A stretch of DNA of 64,000 bases, taken from the NCBI GenBank assembly GCA_029782335.1, contig JAKOVA010000259.1:1-64000 (forward strand), in the 5' to 3' direction. Shown here piece by piece: positions 35,262-45,612 of this stretch. The notes below the pieces were generated by a model. That model was not told the DNA's origin. It was given only the letters and a program-made list of their open reading frames with translations, and searched no databases. Position numbers and translations under genes: made by a program. Positions within the stretch are counted from its first letter, which is position 1, and each line of letters starts with the position of its first letter. The DNA comes from Actinomycetes bacterium. GTDB taxonomy: Bacteria; Actinomycetota; Acidimicrobiia; Acidimicrobiales; Microtrichaceae.

Positions 35262-36158
35262 TCAGCGGCCTGCGGCCCCGGCGGGATCGGACGGGCCGGG
35301 CACCTCGGAGGAAGACCCGGCTGACGGAGGCGCCGAGACGACGAGCTTGCCGCGGAACTTCGAGCCGCGGTTGCGATCCGCGGCACCGAGCCAGTGCAGC
35401 ATCATTGCGATGATGATCGCCCAGAGGTAAGCGCCCTCGATCACCTTCATGACCACACCCGCGTACTGCTGGTCATCGAGCACCGAGATCCCCCAGAGGC
35501 GAGGGCCGTGGTCGTACGCCTTGTAGAGCACCGAGTCGGACGCTGTGAGGAAGGCGGCTGGAATCGTCGGAACGACCGACATCAGAAAGACATAGGCCAT
35601 CTTGCCGGGAGGCGACATGTGCAGCTCGCGGAACGGACCGCACACCGGCACCCACAACAACAACGCCGTCCCGAAGATGAGGACGTGCATCAGGTAGTGG
35701 AACGGGCCGTTCTCCACGGAGAGATTGACGATCCCGCTCCAGTGGCTCGCTGCGGCCATGATGTTGTAGCCGATCGCCGCCGGCAGCGGCCGAGCGAGAC
35801 GGTGGAACCACCGGTTCACCCTGCCGTTCCCGAGGATGAAACGGCCGAGCCACTCCGGTGTCGCGAGCAGCATCACCGGCGGGACAACCACCGTCAGCAG
35901 CATGTGCTGCAGCATGTGCATTCCGTAGAGCCGCTCTTCGGCGAGGTCGTGGAGCGGCCAATCGGAGGCGATCCACAGCGACGCCACCCCGGCGACGAAC
36001 CACCAGCGCTGCGCCTTCGTGATCGGGGCACCCCCGGCCGCGACGGCATGCGGCTGAATCACCCGCGCCGCGTAGAACCCGAACGCGATCACCGTCGCGA
36101 CGAGCAGCCAGACCTCAGGGTGTGCGTCCCATCCCGGGAACGCCGAGGTGGCGGTCAC
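35262..36158 (-). CDS. ctaG: Cytochrome c oxidase assembly factor CtaG-like
   Basis: Multi-TM protein with HMLQHMLL and HYLMHVLIF histidine motifs at end of oxidase operon. Confidence 0.85.
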   Translation of the reverse strand: MTATSAFPGWDAHPEVWLLVATVIAFGFYAARVIQPHAVAAGGAPITKAQRWWFVAGVASLWIASDWPLHDLAEERLYGMHMLQHMLLTVVVPPVMLLATPEWLGRFILGNGRVNRWFHRLARPLPAAIGYNIMAAASHWSGIVNLSVENGPFHYLMHVLIFGTALLLWVPVCGPFRELHMSPPGKMAYVFLMSVVPTIPAAFLTASDSVLYKAYDHGPRLWGISVLDDQQYAGVVMKVIEGAYLWAIIIAMMLHWLGAADRNRGSKFRGKLVVSAPPSAGSSSEVPGPSDPAGAAGR

Positions 36159-36170
36159 GGGACCACGCGA

Positions 36171-36593
36171 TCAGTGACCGCCGGCAGCGGGAATCGACGG
36201 AGGTGGCTCCGTCGGCGTGGGCGGCAGCGGCTTGGCGTGAGGCGGGTCGACGAACTCGGCGTTGCCCGAGTCGGTCCAGTAGGTCATCGACGTCAACACC
36301 GCCATGTAGAGGGCGACCGCCGAGATCAGCCCCAACATGAAGACCCGCCGCAGCGCTGCCGAGTCGAACTTCAGGTGCATGAAGTACGCGGCGACGGCTC
36401 CGAACTTGATCACCATCATGATGATCAACACGACCGCCGCGAAACGGTGCGCCGACTTCGGCCACCAGTAGGTCGACACCTCGAGGCCGGTCAGGACGGC
36501 CAGGAACAACCCGACCTTCCAGTACTCGGCATCGGAAGGGTGGCCGTGATCTTCCTCGAGATGGGTCTCGGAGTCAGCGGTGATGGAGGTCAT
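36171..36593 (-). CDS. Cytochrome c oxidase subunit IV-like
   Basis: Small 3-TM protein YWKVGLFLAVLTGLEVSTYW...YFMHLKFD. Confidence 0.8.
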   Translation of the reverse strand: MTSITADSETHLEEDHGHPSDAEYWKVGLFLAVLTGLEVSTYWWPKSAHRFAAVVLIIMMVIKFGAVAAYFMHLKFDSAALRRVFMLGLISAVALYMAVLTSMTYWTDSGNAEFVDPPHAKPLPPTPTEPPPSIPAAGGH

Positions 36594-36606: not shown

Positions 36607-37314
36607 CTACGGAATCAGGTAGACGATGGTGAAGATCAGGATCCAGATCACGTCGACGAAGTGCCAGTACAGGCCGACGATCTCAACCGCCTCGGGCGAC
36701 GCCTTGCGAGCCCGGAAGGTCATTGCGAGACACGTGAGCAACATGATGATGCCCAGCGTCACGTGCACCCCGTGGAAGCCCGTGAGGGTGTAGAAGGCCG
36801 AGGTCGACACGTTCGAGGTGTAGCCGAGGCCTTCCTTGACGAAGGAGGTGAACTCGTAGACCTGACCGCCGACGAACACCGCACCGAGCGCTGCGGTGGC
36901 ACCGAGCCACAGTCGCAGACGCGACTCCTGGTTACGAGCCGCAGCAAGGACGGCGAACACCATCGTGAGGGAGCTCGCGAGGAGCACGAAAGAGCTCACC
37001 GAGGTGAACGGGATGTCGAACAGCTCGGAGATCCGAACCGGGCTGCCCGCACGGGCACCCTTGGCGGCGTCCTTGAAGAGCAGCGCGCCCGGACGGTTCT
37101 TGTAGAGCAGGTAGGTGGAGATCAACCCGCCGAAGAGCAGGCACTCCGAACCCAGGAACAGCCACATCGCGAGCTTCTCGTTGGAGATGCCCGTGTTGGT
37201 GTGGTGCCCGGCGTGAATCCCGAACTCATCTTCCGGTCCGGGGGTGTGGGCCTCGGCGGCGCCGCCGACCTGTGCGGTGTCGTCAAGGTCCCCCACTGCG
37301 ATGACCTCAGCCAA
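36607..37314 (-). CDS. ctaE: Cytochrome c oxidase subunit III
   Basis: LFLGSECLLFGGL, FYTLTGFHGVHVTLG, YWHFVDVIWI motifs; TTG start with GAGGAGG SD. Confidence 0.92.
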   Translation of the reverse strand: MAEVIAVGDLDDTAQVGGAAEAHTPGPEDEFGIHAGHHTNTGISNEKLAMWLFLGSECLLFGGLISTYLLYKNRPGALLFKDAAKGARAGSPVRISELFDIPFTSVSSFVLLASSLTMVFAVLAAARNQESRLRLWLGATAALGAVFVGGQVYEFTSFVKEGLGYTSNVSTSAFYTLTGFHGVHVTLGIIMLLTCLAMTFRARKASPEAVEIVGLYWHFVDVIWILIFTIVYLIP

Positions 37315-39328
37315 CGGGGGCCTCCTCTCGTTCGGCAGCCGGCAGTTCGGCGGCCGCGGCGTCGGCGGAGCCGTCCGGCTCATCACCGTGGCCGCTGTCG
37401 TCGTGCGGATGTTCCGACGCTGGTGCGGTCGAAGGCTCGATCACCCAGCCCCACACACCACCGGCGAGCAGGATCGAACCGAGGATCGCCCAGCCCAGGT
37501 TGAAGATCAGGCCGTAGGCGATGAACGGCAGGCCGGCGGACACGACGATCGGCCAGTACGACGGCGACGGCAGATGCACGTTCTTGGCGTCGCCCTTCTG
37601 GGCGATGTCGGCGGCATCCGCGATCTTCACCGGACGACCCTGCTCGTCGTGGCCGTACTTGCGGTGCCAGAAATCGTCGAGCTCCTCGATCTGGGGCACG
37701 TAGTCGAAGTTGTGCTCCGGGGTCGGGGAGGGAATCGACCACTCGAGCGTCCGGGCATCCCACGGATCTGGGCCGGGATTCACCGGGTTCGCCTTGTGGC
37801 GACGGTACGACACCCAGCAGTTCACGAGGAACACGATGACGCTGATGGCGATGATGTAGGCGCCGATCGTGGCAACGAAGTTCCACAGGTCGAAGCCCTG
37901 GCCCTCGCTGTAGGTGAAGATCCGGCGGCTCATGCCCTGGAGGCCGAGCATGTGCATCGGGCCGAAGGTCAGGTTGAAGCCGATGAAGGTCAGCCAGAAG
38001 TGCCACTTGCCGAGCTTCTCGTCGAGCATGAACCCGAAAATCTTCGGCCACCAGAAGTAGAAGCCACCGAGCAGCACGAAGAACGAACCACCGAAGAGCA
38101 CGTAGTGGAAGTGCGCCACGATGTAGTAGGTGTCGGTCTGCTGGGTGTCCGCCGGAGCGAAGGCGTGGGTCACCCCAGAGAGACCACCGATCGTGAACAG
38201 CGGGATGAGCGCCAAGGCGAACATCATCGCCGCCGTCATTTTCAGACGGCCTCCGTAGATCGTTGCCATCCAGTTGAGGATCTTCACCCCGGTCGGCACG
38301 GCGATGAACATCGTCGAGAGCGAGAAGGCCGTCACCGACACCGGGCCCATGCCCGAGGCGAACATGTGGTGCGCCCACACACCGAAGCCCATGAAGCCGA
38401 TCGCGACACCAGAGGCGACCATGAACGGGTACCCGAAGATCGGCTTGCGGCTGAACACCGGAAGGATCTCCGACACCATCCCGAAGGCCGGTAACACCAT
38501 GATGTAGACCTCCGGATGCCCGAAGAGCCAGAACAGGTGTTGCCACAGCAATGGATCGCCACCGAGCGCCGCGTTGAAGAAGTTGGCGCCGAAGAGCCGG
38601 TCGAACATCAGAAGGAACAACGCGACGGTGATCGGCGGAAGGGCGAAGAGCAACAGGAACTGGTTGATGAAGGTCATCCAGGTGAAGACCGGCATCCGCA
38701 TGTAGGTCATGCCCGGAGCCCGCAGGTTCATCACGGTGATGATCAGGTTGACGGCACCCACCGTCGAGGCGATACCGGTGATCAGCAGACCGAGTGTGTA
38801 GAAGTCGATGCCGTGGCCGGGAGAGAACGTGACACTGCTGTTCGGCGCGTAGTTGAACCATCCGCCGTCGGCACCACCGCCGAGGAACCACGAACTGTTC
38901 AGGAACAGACCGCCGAAGAGGTAGCACCAGAAGCTGAACGCATTGAGGCGCGGGAAGGCGACGTCACGCGCTCCGATCTGGAGCGGGATCAGATAGTTCG
39001 CGAAGGCGGCGAACAGCGGCATGACGACGAGGAAGATCATCGTGACGCCGTGCATCGTGAAGACCTGGTTGTACAGCGCTGCGGACAACAGTTTCTGACC
39101 CGGCCGGGCGAGCTGCGTACGAATCAACAGCGCTTCGGAGCCCCCGATCGCGAAGAAGGACATCGACGCGACGCCGTACATGATGCCGATCCGCTTGTGA
39201 TCGACGGAGAAGAGCCAGCTCTTCCAGCCCTTCGTCGCGACCGGTCGGGCAAAGATTCCGAGCGGTTTGGTCGGCTTCGGAGCGGTCGGGAGCGCGAGTT
39301 GCGTCGTGTCGGCTTCGATAACTGCCAT
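37307..39328 (-). CDS. ctaD: Cytochrome c oxidase subunit I (canonical; with C-terminal membrane extension)
   Basis: All ligand motifs present: TMHGVTM, GHPEVY, WAHHMF, AHFHYV. Confidence 0.97.
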   Translation of the reverse strand: MAVIEADTTQLALPTAPKPTKPLGIFARPVATKGWKSWLFSVDHKRIGIMYGVASMSFFAIGGSEALLIRTQLARPGQKLLSAALYNQVFTMHGVTMIFLVVMPLFAAFANYLIPLQIGARDVAFPRLNAFSFWCYLFGGLFLNSSWFLGGGADGGWFNYAPNSSVTFSPGHGIDFYTLGLLITGIASTVGAVNLIITVMNLRAPGMTYMRMPVFTWMTFINQFLLLFALPPITVALFLLMFDRLFGANFFNAALGGDPLLWQHLFWLFGHPEVYIMVLPAFGMVSEILPVFSRKPIFGYPFMVASGVAIGFMGFGVWAHHMFASGMGPVSVTAFSLSTMFIAVPTGVKILNWMATIYGGRLKMTAAMMFALALIPLFTIGGLSGVTHAFAPADTQQTDTYYIVAHFHYVLFGGSFFVLLGGFYFWWPKIFGFMLDEKLGKWHFWLTFIGFNLTFGPMHMLGLQGMSRRIFTYSEGQGFDLWNFVATIGAYIIAISVIVFLVNCWVSYRRHKANPVNPGPDPWDARTLEWSIPSPTPEHNFDYVPQIEELDDFWHRKYGHDEQGRPVKIADAADIAQKGDAKNVHLPSPSYWPIVVSAGLPFIAYGLIFNLGWAILGSILLAGGVWGWVIEPSTAPASEHPHDDSGHGDEPDGSADAAAAELPAAEREEAPVG

Positions 39329-39345: not shown

Positions 39346-40557
39346 CTACTTGAGGGTGGTCAGGTAAGCGACGAGCTTACCGATCTCGTCTTCGGACAGA
39401 TTCAGGTTGGGCATGCCGCGAGCGCGGTCTGCCGCCATCGGCTTCTTGTTCGGCGGGTCGCGAAGCCAGTCGCCCAGCTCGCCCTGGTTCGCGACCCCGT
39501 CGGGCATCGCAGAGGTCTTGGGCGCCGCCTCGTCGTAGCTGTCGTAGAGCGGGAACATGCCACCCGCAAAGTGGTCGCGGCTCATCAGGTGGGTGAGGTT
39601 CGGCGCGTTCCCGGAGATCAGGGGATGCTCCGCGCCGCCGTAATCCGGATTGGGCTCGTGCGAATCGGTCTGCTCGCCGGCCGGCGTGTAGCCGTTGATC
39701 TGGTGGCAGCTCGCGCACTTCTGATCGAAGACGGTCTTGCCTTCAGCGGCGAGGGTTCCGTCCTTCGGCTCGACCGGCCCGCTCAGCTGGTTCTCGACCC
39801 AGGCGTCGTAGTCGGACGCGGACAGTGCCTTGACCTGCATCCGCATGTAGCCGTGGGACAGACCGCAGTACTCGGTGCACTGACCTTCGAAGACGCCTGG
39901 CTCATCCGCGTGCAGGGCGATGCGGTGAACTCGGCCCGGAACGGCGTCCTTCTTGCCGTTGAGGGCCGGGATCCAGAAGGAGTGAATGACGTCGTTCGAC
40001 GCGATCTTCACGGCGACCATCGTCTTGGTCGGGATGACGAGCTGGTTCGCCGTGATGATGTCGGGCTTGCCGTCGTTGTTGGTGTCGTAGCGGAACTCCC
40101 ACCACCACTGCTGGCCGATCACCTCGACCGACATCTTCGCCTGTTCGGCGTCGCTCTCGAGATCCCACAGCGTCGAAACGTTGAACGCAGCGAGAATCGC
40201 GAGGGTCAGCGCGGGAATGGCCGTCCACGTCCACTCGAGCACGGAGCGGCCATGCACCTGCACCGGCTCGTCCTCGCCGTCGACGTCGTCGTGGCGGCGA
40301 CGGAACCGGTAGACGAGGAACAGCGTGCCGCCCTCGACGAACACGAACACGAGGCCCGCGATCCCGAACACCAACCGGGAGAGGTCGTCGATCTTGCGTG
40401 CCTCTTCGCCACGCGGCTTCAACGTGGTCAGCGGGTGATTCACCGCGTCGGTGATGTTGTGGAGGATCAGCAGCATGCCGCCGATCATCAACAGCGTGAG
40501 AACGGTCGCGATGACGTAGTCACGGGTATGGGAGCGACGAGGGGTATTCGCAGCCAT
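39346..40557 (-). CDS. ctaC: Cytochrome c oxidase subunit II fused to cytochrome c domain (caa3 type)
   Basis: CuA motif CTEYCGLSHGYM and heme c motif CASCHQ. Confidence 0.95.
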   Translation of the reverse strand: MAANTPRRSHTRDYVIATVLTLLMIGGMLLILHNITDAVNHPLTTLKPRGEEARKIDDLSRLVFGIAGLVFVFVEGGTLFLVYRFRRRHDDVDGEDEPVQVHGRSVLEWTWTAIPALTLAILAAFNVSTLWDLESDAEQAKMSVEVIGQQWWWEFRYDTNNDGKPDIITANQLVIPTKTMVAVKIASNDVIHSFWIPALNGKKDAVPGRVHRIALHADEPGVFEGQCTEYCGLSHGYMRMQVKALSASDYDAWVENQLSGPVEPKDGTLAAEGKTVFDQKCASCHQINGYTPAGEQTDSHEPNPDYGGAEHPLISGNAPNLTHLMSRDHFAGGMFPLYDSYDEAAPKTSAMPDGVANQGELGDWLRDPPNKKPMAADRARGMPNLNLSEDEIGKLVAYLTTLK

Positions 40558-40560
40558 CGA

Positions 40561-41415
40561 TCAGCCTTCCTGGCCCACGGCCGGGGTGAGGACAGCCGGC
40601 ACCGCGCCTTCCTGAGCGCCGTGATGCTCGAAGTCGCGAGGGCCGGTGACGGCGCCGGCGACTCCGACGGCCAGTACCACCACGGCACCCAACACGAGCA
40701 CCCCGACGACCAACGAGCGCCGGATCTGAGGACGGGAGTTGAGAATGATCGCAACACCGAAGAACAGCGCTGCGAGGGCAAGCGCAACCCAGACGGCCCC
40801 GAGCTTGGAGACCGCGAGGAACACACGCGAGAAGCAGTAGACGATCGCGCCGATCAGGAACAGACCGCCGAAGGGGACCTCGACGGGCAGCATCAGGCGG
40901 TTCCGCATCACGCGGTTTGCCGCAGCGTCAGCGCTGCGCTGCTCGGCCCAGTTGGCGATCGTCCACTCGACGCCGACGATGGCCAGACTCGAGCAGCCGA
41001 TGAGGAAGAGGATCGGCGAGGCGGCGAGGCCGATCACGATGGCAGTCGCGGCGAGCCCTGCGATGAACGGCCAGGCGTTGAGCATCACCGACGGGGTGAC
41101 GACGACGGTCGCCTCGCTGCCGTCGAGCTGCGCAAGCGCTTCGGCGTCGCTGTCGCGGAAGGCCGAGGCGGCCACTCCGAGACCGAAGGTCCCGCCGGCG
41201 AACCCCATGAGGATCGCGTAGCCGACATGGTCACCGACGCCACCCTTGTATCCGAAGGTGATCGGCCCCAACAGGGCGTTGACGGCGCCATCGCTCGAAA
41301 GCAGGTGCACCACGCCGCCGTGTTCCACGCCGTTGGTGACGATGCCGTAGACCACCGCCGCGATGAACGCGGCGCCGGCCAGGCCGAAGAAATACTTGGA
41401 TCCGGTGGTGATCAC
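40561..41415 (-). CDS. Multi-TM membrane protein of unknown function in oxidase operon
   Basis: 284 aa, many predicted hydrophobic helices; no known motif recognised. Confidence 0.7.
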   Translation of the reverse strand: MITTGSKYFFGLAGAAFIAAVVYGIVTNGVEHGGVVHLLSSDGAVNALLGPITFGYKGGVGDHVGYAILMGFAGGTFGLGVAASAFRDSDAEALAQLDGSEATVVVTPSVMLNAWPFIAGLAATAIVIGLAASPILFLIGCSSLAIVGVEWTIANWAEQRSADAAANRVMRNRLMLPVEVPFGGLFLIGAIVYCFSRVFLAVSKLGAVWVALALAALFFGVAIILNSRPQIRRSLVVGVLVLGAVVVLAVGVAGAVTGPRDFEHHGAQEGAVPAVLTPAVGQEG

Positions 41416-41457: not shown

Positions 41458-42042
41458 CTACTTCAGCACGTAGACGCCGAGCCAAACCGCGAAGTAGAGC
41501 CCGGCCATGACGTGCCAGTAGAGCGCGGCGGCCGAGAAGCCGTCGGGACGGAAGCTGGAGGTTTCGCCCCCGAGCGCACGCAGCGTGGTGACGCCGAGGA
41601 AGAGGATCGCAGCGCCCAGCATCGCCAGGTGCGCGCCGGTCACCGCGTAGAAGAGCGGGCCTTCCGGCTGGGTCATCGCGAGCCCGACCTCGGTGTAGAG
41701 GAACCAGGTTTGGTTGAGCACCGCGAGACCCAACACGATCGTGATCAACGACGCCAGGTAGGTGTAGCCACGCTGGTTGCGGGCGATCGAATGCACCGCC
41801 CACTGCACCGTGAACATGCTCATCAGCAACGTGAAGAGCTGCATCGTGGGCTGTGTCAACGGGATGTTGTTGTCTTTCAGCCAGTCGGGGCCGACACCGT
41901 GCCGCTGCTGGAGGTATGCGCCCAGCAGGGTGAGGATGAGCACCGCGGAGCCTGCTGCGGCGAACCCCGCGCCGAACAGGAGCTGGCGGCGTCGTGGCGG
42001 GATCGCCGGGGCGAGCTCCGCGGGAATCGTTGCCACCGACAT
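41458..42042 (-). CDS. Second heme-copper oxidase subunit III-like protein
   Basis: LFYAVTGAHLAML and ALYWHVMAGLYFAVW align with canonical subunit III helices; ATGA overlap with 42042-43583 gene. Confidence 0.8.
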   Translation of the reverse strand: MSVATIPAELAPAIPPRRRQLLFGAGFAAAGSAVLILTLLGAYLQQRHGVGPDWLKDNNIPLTQPTMQLFTLLMSMFTVQWAVHSIARNQRGYTYLASLITIVLGLAVLNQTWFLYTEVGLAMTQPEGPLFYAVTGAHLAMLGAAILFLGVTTLRALGGETSSFRPDGFSAAALYWHVMAGLYFAVWLGVYVLK

Positions 42043-43583
42043 CAGGATGCGTCCTTTCCGTCGAGCACGGGGTAGGCGCTCTCGATCGGGCCGGCGAGAG
42101 GTCCGTCGGACCACTCGAGCGTCCCGCCGCCACCCCACGGATCAGCCGAGTCGGACTCGCCGCCGCGTCGTGGACCGACGGCGGCACCGAGCGTTCCGAG
42201 CGCGACGAGCACGATGATCGCTGCGCCGACAGCGGCGATCGCCGCGAAGGCGTTCGAGTCGGTGTTGGAGAGACCGACGACCAACCACGGGATTCCCCAG
42301 AGGGCGATCCCGAGGGCGACCACGCCAGCGAGACCCTTGCCGGCCGCTTCGGGCAGGGACGCACCGAAGATCTGGCGACCCCAGTAGAAGATTCCGCCGA
42401 GCGCCGCGATGACCGCAGCGCCCAGTACCACACGGAACTGCGCGAGCGACACGGCGGCGAGATTGAAATCGCCGAGGGTTCCCTTCCCGATCGAGTTCAC
42501 GACCCGGAAGGCCCCGATGCCGGCGCCGATCAGTGCGATCGGCAGGGCGAGCGCCACGAACGCCAGCGGCGACATGAACTTCGGCTTGCCACGACCGAGC
42601 GTGTCGGCGACCGCGGCGCCGACGCCGAGGAGCGGCAGACCGGCCAGGAGGACGAAGCCGGCCCACAGAAGCGTCGACTGCGCAACGGTGCCCTGCGCCC
42701 ATGCGCCATAGGAGGCGAGGCCCGCCACGCCGATGAGCGAGAGCACGAGCCCACGGAAGCGCTGGCGATCACCGACGGCCGTCGCCACCACATCGGCGAG
42801 GATCCCGAGCACCGGGATGAACAGCATGAAGACCGCGGGTGGCTGGAAGAGCCAGTCCACCCCGCCGCTGAACGTGGAGGTGGCCAGTGCCGAGCCGTCG
42901 GCACGAGAGATGTGGCCGACCACGACATGCGCGAGCGACGCCGGAATCGTGAGCACGAGGATCGACGCCGTGACCAGCATGGAGAAGGCGAAGAAGGGCA
43001 CACGGTCGAGGCCCAGACCCGCGGGCCGCAGGCTGAGCACCGTTACGGCCACGCACACCGCAGCGAGACACAGGGCGACCATCAGCGCACCGACGGCGAC
43101 GTTGCCGAGCCGCGCGGCCTTGAGGTGACCGCCGCCGTAGGAACCGTCGGCCGCAACGGTCACGATGAACACCAGTGCCGAACCGAGCCACGTCCACAAC
43201 GACGCCGCAGCGGCCCGGGGGAAGGCGACCGCCGGCGAGCCGACCTGGGTGGGGACGACGGCGATGGCGATTCCCAACAGCAACGGCAGGACGCCCAACA
43301 GCAGGAGGCCGACCTGTTCGTTCATCAGGAGTCGCTGGGCGACCTCGCTACTGAAGATCGAGCCGTCGGACGCGGTGTTGGCATCGACCAGCGCCGACAC
43401 GACCGCGCCCGCCGCCAGGAACACAAGCGAGCAGAGAATGAAGACCCGCCCGATGAGGCGGTGATCGCCGGAACCGACGAGACGCTCGAACGCCGTCGGC
43501 TCGGTGGCCCGATTGATTCCCGGGCCCGGTTGTTCGACGGCTGGAGCCGTCTCAACCGCTGGAGATGTATCGGTCATCGTCAT
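42042..43583 (-). CDS. Divergent heme-copper oxidase subunit I paralogue lacking all canonical metal-binding histidines
   Basis: SGDHRLIG, VVPTQVGSPAVAFPR, WLFQPPAVFMLFIPVLGI, YGAWAQG, LAQFRVVLG, IFYWGRQIFG and DPWGGGGTLEWS align with CtaD (37307-39328) but ligands are substituted. Confidence 0.85.
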   Translation of the reverse strand: MTMTDTSPAVETAPAVEQPGPGINRATEPTAFERLVGSGDHRLIGRVFILCSLVFLAAGAVVSALVDANTASDGSIFSSEVAQRLLMNEQVGLLLLGVLPLLLGIAIAVVPTQVGSPAVAFPRAAAASLWTWLGSALVFIVTVAADGSYGGGHLKAARLGNVAVGALMVALCLAAVCVAVTVLSLRPAGLGLDRVPFFAFSMLVTASILVLTIPASLAHVVVGHISRADGSALATSTFSGGVDWLFQPPAVFMLFIPVLGILADVVATAVGDRQRFRGLVLSLIGVAGLASYGAWAQGTVAQSTLLWAGFVLLAGLPLLGVGAAVADTLGRGKPKFMSPLAFVALALPIALIGAGIGAFRVVNSIGKGTLGDFNLAAVSLAQFRVVLGAAVIAALGGIFYWGRQIFGASLPEAAGKGLAGVVALGIALWGIPWLVVGLSNTDSNAFAAIAAVGAAIIVLVALGTLGAAVGPRRGGESDSADPWGGGGTLEWSDGPLAGPIESAYPVLDGKDAS

Positions 43584-43683: not shown

Positions 43684-44586
43684 TCAGCCCGACACCAGGG
43701 CGTCGACGGCCATCGCGCCGAACAGCAGCGTCACGTACGTGATGGAGAACGAGAACATTCGCATCGCGATCTTCGGCGACGACGTGCGGAACACCGCGAC
43801 CGCCAACCCGAGGAAGATCAGGCCCAAGATGATCGCCGACGCGACGTAGATCACTCCGAGGTTCGCGACCGGCGCCAGCACCAACGACAGCGCGACCAGC
43901 ACCACCGTGTAGGCGATCAGCTGGATCCCGACGTTCCGCTCGCTCGCCACCGACGGCAGCATCGGCACATGCGCGCGGGCGTAGTCGTCCTTGTACTTGA
44001 TCGCCAACGCCCAGAAATGGGGCGGCGTCCACATGAAGATGATTGCGAAGAGGATCCACGGCGCTGCGCCGAGATGCCCCGTTACCGCCGCCCAGCCGAT
44101 CAGCGTGGGGGCAGCGCCGGCCGCCCCGCCGATCACGATGTTCTGCGACGAGGAGCGCTTCAACCACAGCGTGTAGATGAAGACGTAGAAGGCCGCCGCA
44201 CCCAGGGCCAGCAGCGCCGAGAGCAGGTTGACGAACGCCCAGAGCCACACGAAGGCGACGACCTCGATGCCGATCGAGAAGGCGAGCGCCGCCCGAGGCG
44301 TCACCGCACCGGTGACCAGTGGACGGCCCTGCGTACGGTGCATGACGGCGTCGATGTCGCGGTCGACGTACATGTTCGCCGCATTCGCGCCGCCCGCGGC
44401 GAGCGTCCCGCCGATCACCGTCGCGGCCATCAGCCACAACGACGGGACACCGCGCTCGGCGACCAGCATGGTGGGCACCGTCGTGACGAGCAGCAGTTCG
44501 ATGATCCGCGGCTTCATCAGCGCGATGTAGGCGCCGATCCGCGACGACGAGGACCGCGCCGAGAGTGCTGGAGCTGCAGGAGACAC
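43684..44586 (-). CDS. ctaB: Protoheme IX farnesyltransferase (heme O synthase)
   Basis: NAANMYVDRDIDAVMHRTQGRPL and WTPPHFWALAIKYKDDY motifs. Confidence 0.97.
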   Translation of the reverse strand: MSPAAPALSARSSSSRIGAYIALMKPRIIELLLVTTVPTMLVAERGVPSLWLMAATVIGGTLAAGGANAANMYVDRDIDAVMHRTQGRPLVTGAVTPRAALAFSIGIEVVAFVWLWAFVNLLSALLALGAAAFYVFIYTLWLKRSSSQNIVIGGAAGAAPTLIGWAAVTGHLGAAPWILFAIIFMWTPPHFWALAIKYKDDYARAHVPMLPSVASERNVGIQLIAYTVVLVALSLVLAPVANLGVIYVASAIILGLIFLGLAVAVFRTSSPKIAMRMFSFSITYVTLLFGAMAVDALVSG

Positions 44587-44673: not shown

Positions 44674-45612
44674 GTGAGTGCGCTCCCTCCGGCCATTCGC
44701 ACCCCGTCCGCCTACCGACGGATGTGCATCGCCTCCCTCTGGGCGCTGTGCGCCATCATCGTGACCGGCGCCTCGGTTCGCCTGACCGGCTCAGGCCTCG
44801 GCTGCACCCAGTGGCCGACGTGCAACGACGGCAACATCGTCGCACCGCTCGAGTACCACCCGATGATCGAGTTCGTGAACCGACTCGTCACCGGCGTGGT
44901 GTCGATCGCGGTGATCGTGGCGGTCGCCGGATCCCTCATCCGACAACCTCGTCGCCGCGATCTCACTCGCTGGTCGTTGGCGCTCGTTGCCGGCGTGGTC
45001 GCGCAGATCCTCATCGGTGCCGTTGTCGTGATGAGCGACCTCGAGTACTCGATGGTGGCGTTGCACTTCCTCGTCTCGATGGTGCTCGTCGCCGCCGCTG
45101 TCGTCCTCGTCAACCGGGCCGGGATTCCCGATGACGAGCCGCTCTCGCGCCCGTGGCCAACGTGGGCGAAGGCGCTCGTCGGCGGTTGTGTGGCCGTGTT
45201 GTTGAGCGGACCGCTCGTCTCGAGCGCCGGACCACATCCCGGGGCCCTCGAGGGGGTCGCCCACGACGGCAAAGACCTCGTCCTGAAGCGACTCCCCATC
45301 GACCTGGTGTGGGTGGCGCGCCTCCACAGCGTCACCGTGTGGATCTTCGTGCTCGGGATCGTCGCCGTGGCCTGGCGCCACCGACGTTCCGACGATCCGA
45401 TGCATCGACCACTCGTCGATCTGCTCGTCGTCGCTGTCGCCCAAGGGGCGATCGGCTACACCCAGTACTTCACGGGAGTGCCGGCATTGCTCGTCGGGAT
45501 CCATGTTCTCGGCGCCACCCTGTTGTGGGTCATGACGCTGCGGGTCGCGCAGGTCGCAGCGACCGCCGGCGACACCGTCGCTGCCCGTCCGGCCACGGCG
45601 CTGGTGACATGA
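44674..45612 (+). CDS. ctaA: Heme A synthase (COX15/CtaA)
   Basis: [22 protein letters not shown] and multi-TM pattern; divergent from ctaB. Confidence 0.95.

Follow-up and report, generated by a model that had tools for sequence, protein, structure and literature searches.

Invariant histidines are the mark by which members of the heme-copper oxidase family are recognised. In a 64,000-nucleotide stretch of contig JAKOVA010000259.1 from a member of the Microtrichaceae, referred to here as the window, a subunit I homologue that has none of these histidines at its ligand positions is encoded beside the genes of a caa3 oxidase. This raises the question of what such a protein does next to an intact enzyme. 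The homologue (protein P0002) is called COX1p below, and the term module refers to COX1p together with COX3p and X7.

Table 1. Features of the caa3 oxidase locus in the window, with positions, strand and supporting details.
Feature	Positions	Strand	Details
ctaG, caa3 assembly factor	35262..36158	-	PF09678 E 1.2e-39
Subunit IV (COX4_pro)	36171..36593	-	PF03626 E 5.1e-10
ctaE, canonical subunit III	36607..37386	-	PF00510 E 2.9e-21; start codon not fixed
ctaD, intact catalytic subunit I	37307..39328	-	PF00115 E 4.8e-157; ligands all present
ctaC, subunit II with fused cytochrome c domain (caa3 type)	39346..40557	-	PF00116 E 2.6e-24, PF00034 E 1.6e-9
X7, 7-TM protein	40561..41415	-	284 aa; N half subunit-IV-like, C half 3-TM domain
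COX3p, diverged subunit III homologue	41458..42042	-	194 aa; PF00510 E 7e-11; seen in 66 loci
COX1p, ligand-less cytochrome c oxidase subunit I homologue	42042..43583	-	ATG start, 513 aa, 12 TM, ORF intact
ctaB, heme o synthase	43684..44586	-	NF003349 E 3.3e-119; upstream of COX1p, 100-bp gap
ctaA, heme a synthase, divergent	44674..45612	+	PF02628 E 3.5e-26

COX1p matched the Pfam COX1 family (PF00115) with an E value of 1.2e-23, residues 44-446 corresponding to profile positions 2-411. It also matched the CtaD model TIGR02891 at 6.6e-35, far under the equivalog cut-off of that model. The stop codon of COX1p (TGA, 42044-42042) overlaps the ATG of COX3p (42042) in a TGATG junction. Together with the PF00510 match of COX3p, this overlap bears out the translational coupling to a second subunit III-like gene that had been noted in a preliminary description of the locus. 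The same description treated COX1p as a paralogue in an operon with functional caa3 genes. The placement beside caa3 held, but the wording understates the case because a three-gene module of COX1p, COX3p and X7 is conserved over much of the order. The CtaD of the window carries a C-terminal extension with a weak match to PF12270 (subunit-IV-like) at residues 573-633, yet a separate COX4_pro gene is present at 36171-36593.

The ligand columns were read from an alignment of COX1p with the window CtaD (37307-39328) and 33 other CtaDs, and CtaD residues are given first. By fold and sequence family COX1p is a heme-copper oxidase subunit I with 12 transmembrane (TM) helices. The bis-His low-spin heme site of helices II and X is absent, H93 of helix II being replaced by E89 and H408 of the helix X heme pair by R384. 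The high-spin heme histidine and the three CuB histidines are also absent: the other position of the helix X pair is Q382 (H406), the helix VI CuB histidine is P248 (H271), and the helix VII CuB pair is Q297 (H320) and G298 (H321). The cross-link tyrosine of the A family (Y275) is F252, and both proton pathways are gone, with Ala at D122 of the D-path, Ala at Glu273 and Val at K349 of the K-path. These results confirmed an intact COX1-family paralogue without metal ligands, and all residue assignments made earlier were correct. The additional loss of the D- and K-pathway residues weakened the ion-translocation role that had also been suggested.

Misalignment concealing the true ligands was ruled out, since four alignments were concordant for the ligand-less type; the stretch from helix II to P111 aligned without gaps. 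Migrated histidine ligands were ruled out as well. Apart from the N-terminal H41, no histidine is common to half of the ligand-less family, which leaves no conserved pair of substitute ligands. Among the ligand-less members, H320 is replaced by Gln in 44 of 60 and H406 by Gln in 42 of 60, the Tyr275 column holds Tyr or Phe in 55 of 60, and the C-terminal TLEW tail is almost invariant. The former active site has therefore been remodelled in a shared way. In the family, the D-path Asp is mostly Ala, Thr or Ser, E273 mostly Ala or Gln, and the K-path Lys mostly Leu or Val; the only acidic column conserved in at least 85% lies in the C-terminal tail. Structural residues retained in COX1p (CtaD numbering) were P115, Q117, R127, G151, T198, R203, G206, P272, G283 and W426, and 43 of the 233 columns conserved in CtaD survived.

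The AF2 model of COX1p reached a pLDDT of 90.1 and a pTM of 0.92. With this model, the top PDB match in Foldseek was 7qhm_D (TMq 0.83), and the best PDB folds were subunit I of the C. glutamicum and mycobacterial (M. smegmatis) bcc-aa3 supercomplexes. The COX1p family profile matched 6adq_F at 2e-116. Model and structural search thus agree with the oxidase fold proposed in the preliminary description. Among close pairs of four g9 genomes, dN/dS was 0.09-0.16 for COX1p, 0.03-0.08 for COX3p and X7, and about 0.02 for CtaD, while dS in more distant pairs was saturated or unreliable. Given these values, COX1p is not decaying. The selection test gave no sign of relaxed selection, and the listed COX1p matches contained no internal stops. 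The evolutionary rate of COX1p is several times that of CtaD. A possible frameshift was noted in the low-quality genome G024, where COX1p is present as two adjacent pieces. The preliminary description had proposed to look for orthologues that share the histidine loss and for purifying selection; the former were found, and the latter was seen in these close pairs. No conserved histidine at a ligand position, no assignment to a non-oxidase family and no decay was found.

The whole genomes of 100 relatives, many of them incomplete metagenome-assembled genomes (MAGs), were searched for orthologues. COX1p orthologues were found in all parts of the family and in many of the order's families; the named matches were Microthrixaceae MAGs, Acidimicrobiales MAGs and strain IMCC26207. 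The gene order ctaB-COX1p-COX3p-X7-ctaC-ctaD was found in 48/48 fully spanned loci, usually flanked by a divergent ctaA upstream and by ctaE, the subunit IV gene and ctaG downstream. About 70 orthologues share one operon position, and the finding is far beyond chance. The module was missing from about 20 of the 100 genomes. One genome (G001) had two diverged cta clusters, C80 (L004) and C46 (L072), each with its own COX1p-COX3p-X7, although MAG contamination is possible. Beyond the order, X7 was searched for and about a dozen operons were inspected; none of these other-class operons contained COX1p.

A profile of the N half of X7 (A2) matched PDB chains of mycobacterial-type subunit 4 with E values from 2.7e-4 (best) to 2.8e-3. 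The AF2 model of X7 contained seven helices with good local confidence (pLDDT 83.7) and low global confidence (pTM 0.58), and Foldseek gave no significant match for it. A Pfam search of the window X7 gave no match, and the cupredoxin domain is absent from this copy. In X7 of relatives, cupredoxin (PF13473) had Pfam support in several, and the type-1 copper ligand pattern His...Cys-x-x-His...Met was visible in the alignment. In other classes of the phylum the C half is a separate 3-TM protein, usually with a cupredoxin, located after ctaG. In L103-L114, from these classes, such a 3-TM and cupredoxin homologue ends the ctaC-D-E-ctaG operon. COX1p is without the IV-like tail of CtaD while X7 has a IV-like part, so COX1p-COX3p-X7 looks, from its domain content, like a duplicated oxidase core consisting of subunits I, III and a IV-like domain fused to a 3-TM domain.

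On the tree, a fully supported branch separated the COX1p set from CtaD, and a long-branch warning applies to its root relative to caa3 and other aa3 CtaDs. The CuB site was kept in no COX1p examined. The bis-His heme a pair was retained in 13/68 COX1p, with about five changes on the tree, and seven of these 13 also keep the heme a3 histidine. In a clade near CtaD (L060, L064, L065, L066, L067 and L069), the helix II histidine and both helix X histidines are kept, and the members share Arg at the helix VI CuB histidine, Arg or Asn at D122, and His at the second propionate Arg. L118, L115 and L063 keep the heme a pair only. Among more diverged COX1p, all three heme histidines occur in L051 and the heme a pair in L047, L070 and L038. 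An X7 cupredoxin, scored on orthologues collected by single-query hits, was present in 9/13 bis-His loci versus 1/53 others, a pattern rather than a test because the tree holds only four independent pairs. The COX1p nearest to ctaD have thus kept heme ligands, usually with a type-1-copper cupredoxin in X7, while most others, including that of the window, lost both. It looks as though redox centres were shed stepwise from a duplicated core that retained its operon position and fold. In the near-CtaD clade, a CuB-less COX1 with all heme histidines is accompanied by a type-1-copper subunit of the 7-TM type; this pairing may represent a heme/blue-copper electron-transfer complex that is so far undescribed.

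A short split cytochrome b was found in 68/77 module-bearing versus 2/23 module-less genomes, but phylogeny and the caa3-type operon itself are both confounders of this co-occurrence. The two module-less genomes with a split cytochrome b are draft assemblies. Module-less genomes mostly have a full-length QcrB, and those inspected carry a different CtaD type. Common descent, and not a functional link, may explain the co-occurrence. At the one locus examined (L197:1810-5690), the split cytochrome b (petB-like and petD-like) is encoded with Rieske and cytochrome c genes.

All heme and copper ligands are lost and yet the gene is preserved by selection over much of the order, which suggests that a duplicated respiratory enzyme has become a structural or assembly component. 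In the explanation that we favour, to which we give an even chance, COX1p is a cofactor-free pseudo-oxidase protomer that acts as a structural partner of the caa3 oxidase, in a supercomplex or a hetero-oligomer. In the window lineage, the apo protomer would pack against the active CtaC, CtaD and CtaE as a permanent partner, possibly in a pseudo-heterodimer, or in a supercomplex as the spacer that separates caa3 from the split cytochrome b/Rieske complex. Its emptied pocket would have been refilled, commonly with Gln at the helix VII CuB and helix X heme a3 histidine positions, and O2 chemistry and proton pumping would be left wholly to CtaD. Of the steps in this mechanism, the structural role as a subunit is the least secure. 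The intact fold, the structural residues kept, the shared new states at former ligand positions, the constant gene order, the low dN/dS and the way the module tracks split cytochrome b argue for a structural partner, as do the separate modules of the two G001 clusters and the precedent of CydB described below. However, evolution several-fold faster than that of CtaD is unusual for a tightly packed core subunit, the slot beside ctaB also suits an assembly role, and the cytochrome b association is confounded in a sample with many incomplete MAGs.

The structural protomer is favoured over an assembly platform, which we regard as a serious but clearly less probable possibility. Here COX1p-COX3p-X7 would form a chaperone complex for caa3 assembly, outside the mature enzyme, that holds CtaE, CtaC, heme A or copper while CtaD matures. 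The module lies between genes for heme synthesis (ctaB, ctaA) and the structural genes, which fits such a platform. The fast evolution of COX1p relative to CtaD suits a transient partner, and beyond the order a cupredoxin-bearing homologue of the X7 C half adjoins ctaG, a proposed CuB insertion factor. Duplication as an origin of assembly proteins has also been proposed (PMC9145763). However, the window module is unable to carry cofactors itself because the copper domain of X7 and the heme ligands of COX1p are lost; a 12-TM protein with copies of III and IV is a heavy chaperone, and COX1p is missing from the other-class operons. The window COX1p is unlikely to retain redox activity or to conduct ions. 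An ancestor was probably redox active, because near-ctaD relatives keep heme ligands, mostly with a type-1-copper X7, and these relatives are what speaks for a module that is still redox active, in which COX1p would use non-canonical ligands to bind hemes and would pass electrons. We consider this improbable for the window's family, which has Glu and Arg at the helix II and helix X ligand positions, no conserved histidine except H41 and no cupredoxin in X7. The 12-TM fold and the Gln pair as polar replacements in the former active site would suit an ion or proton channel, or a pump driven by conformational change of the partner, but this is quite improbable with the D-path Asp, E273 and the K-path Lys replaced and the sole conserved acidic column in the C-terminal tail. 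Least probable is a decaying duplicate, a pseudogene in the making: the long branches, the progressive loss of conserved residues and the split gene of G024 point that way, whereas the constant gene order, the absence of internal stops in the listed matches and the confident fold do not, and the selection test, with dN/dS far below 1, largely ruled it out.

Compared with the actinobacterial aa3 CtaD of the bcc-aa3 supercomplexes (M. smegmatis 6adq, C. glutamicum 7qhm), COX1p has the same fold, 12 TM helices, structural Gly, Pro and Trp residues and a C-terminal TLEW/SLEW tail. In contrast to CtaD, it is without heme and CuB ligands and without both proton pathways, and it is an extra gene beside an intact ctaD. 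Other members of the heme-copper family, such as NOR, NOD and further non-oxidase proteins, are likewise derived from COX1 with altered active sites; as far as we know, all of them keep heme ligands, whereas the P0002 type keeps none. The N half of X7 resembles actinobacterial subunit IV (CtaF; 8hcr_H, 6adq_H) only in the weak sequence match given above, and X7 differs in having three extra TM helices, to which some relatives add a cupredoxin domain. We know of no cofactor-free counterpart in the heme-copper superfamily. No published description of the COX1p module, and no precedent within this superfamily, was found in the open-licence papers searched. The precedent in kind is CydB, which in C. 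glutamicum cytochrome bd is a cofactor-free structural partner of CydA in a pseudosymmetric heterodimer (PMC9846854). The likeness lies in the partner role that is proposed for COX1p, which is of an unrelated family; unlike in cytochrome bd, the duplication seems to have involved a whole I+III+IV core, and the active oxidase stands apart as an enzyme complete in itself.

We tentatively propose that in many members of the order the caa3 complex may be a pseudo-heterodimeric heme-copper oxidase, built from a catalytic protomer and a second one entirely free of cofactors, with intermediates in relatives that include a CuB-less, heme-bearing COX1 with a blue-copper subunit. If true, the latter would be an undescribed electron-transfer complex by itself. 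A branch without any of the invariant histidines, under selection over much of the order, indicates that the heme-copper fold has a role apart from catalysis. COX1-family matches in Acidimicrobiia are not always oxidases, which calls for caution in annotation. The graded series, in which CuB is missing throughout, heme ligands disappeared repeatedly and the partner lost its cupredoxin, offers a natural dissection of the path from a respiratory enzyme to a scaffold.
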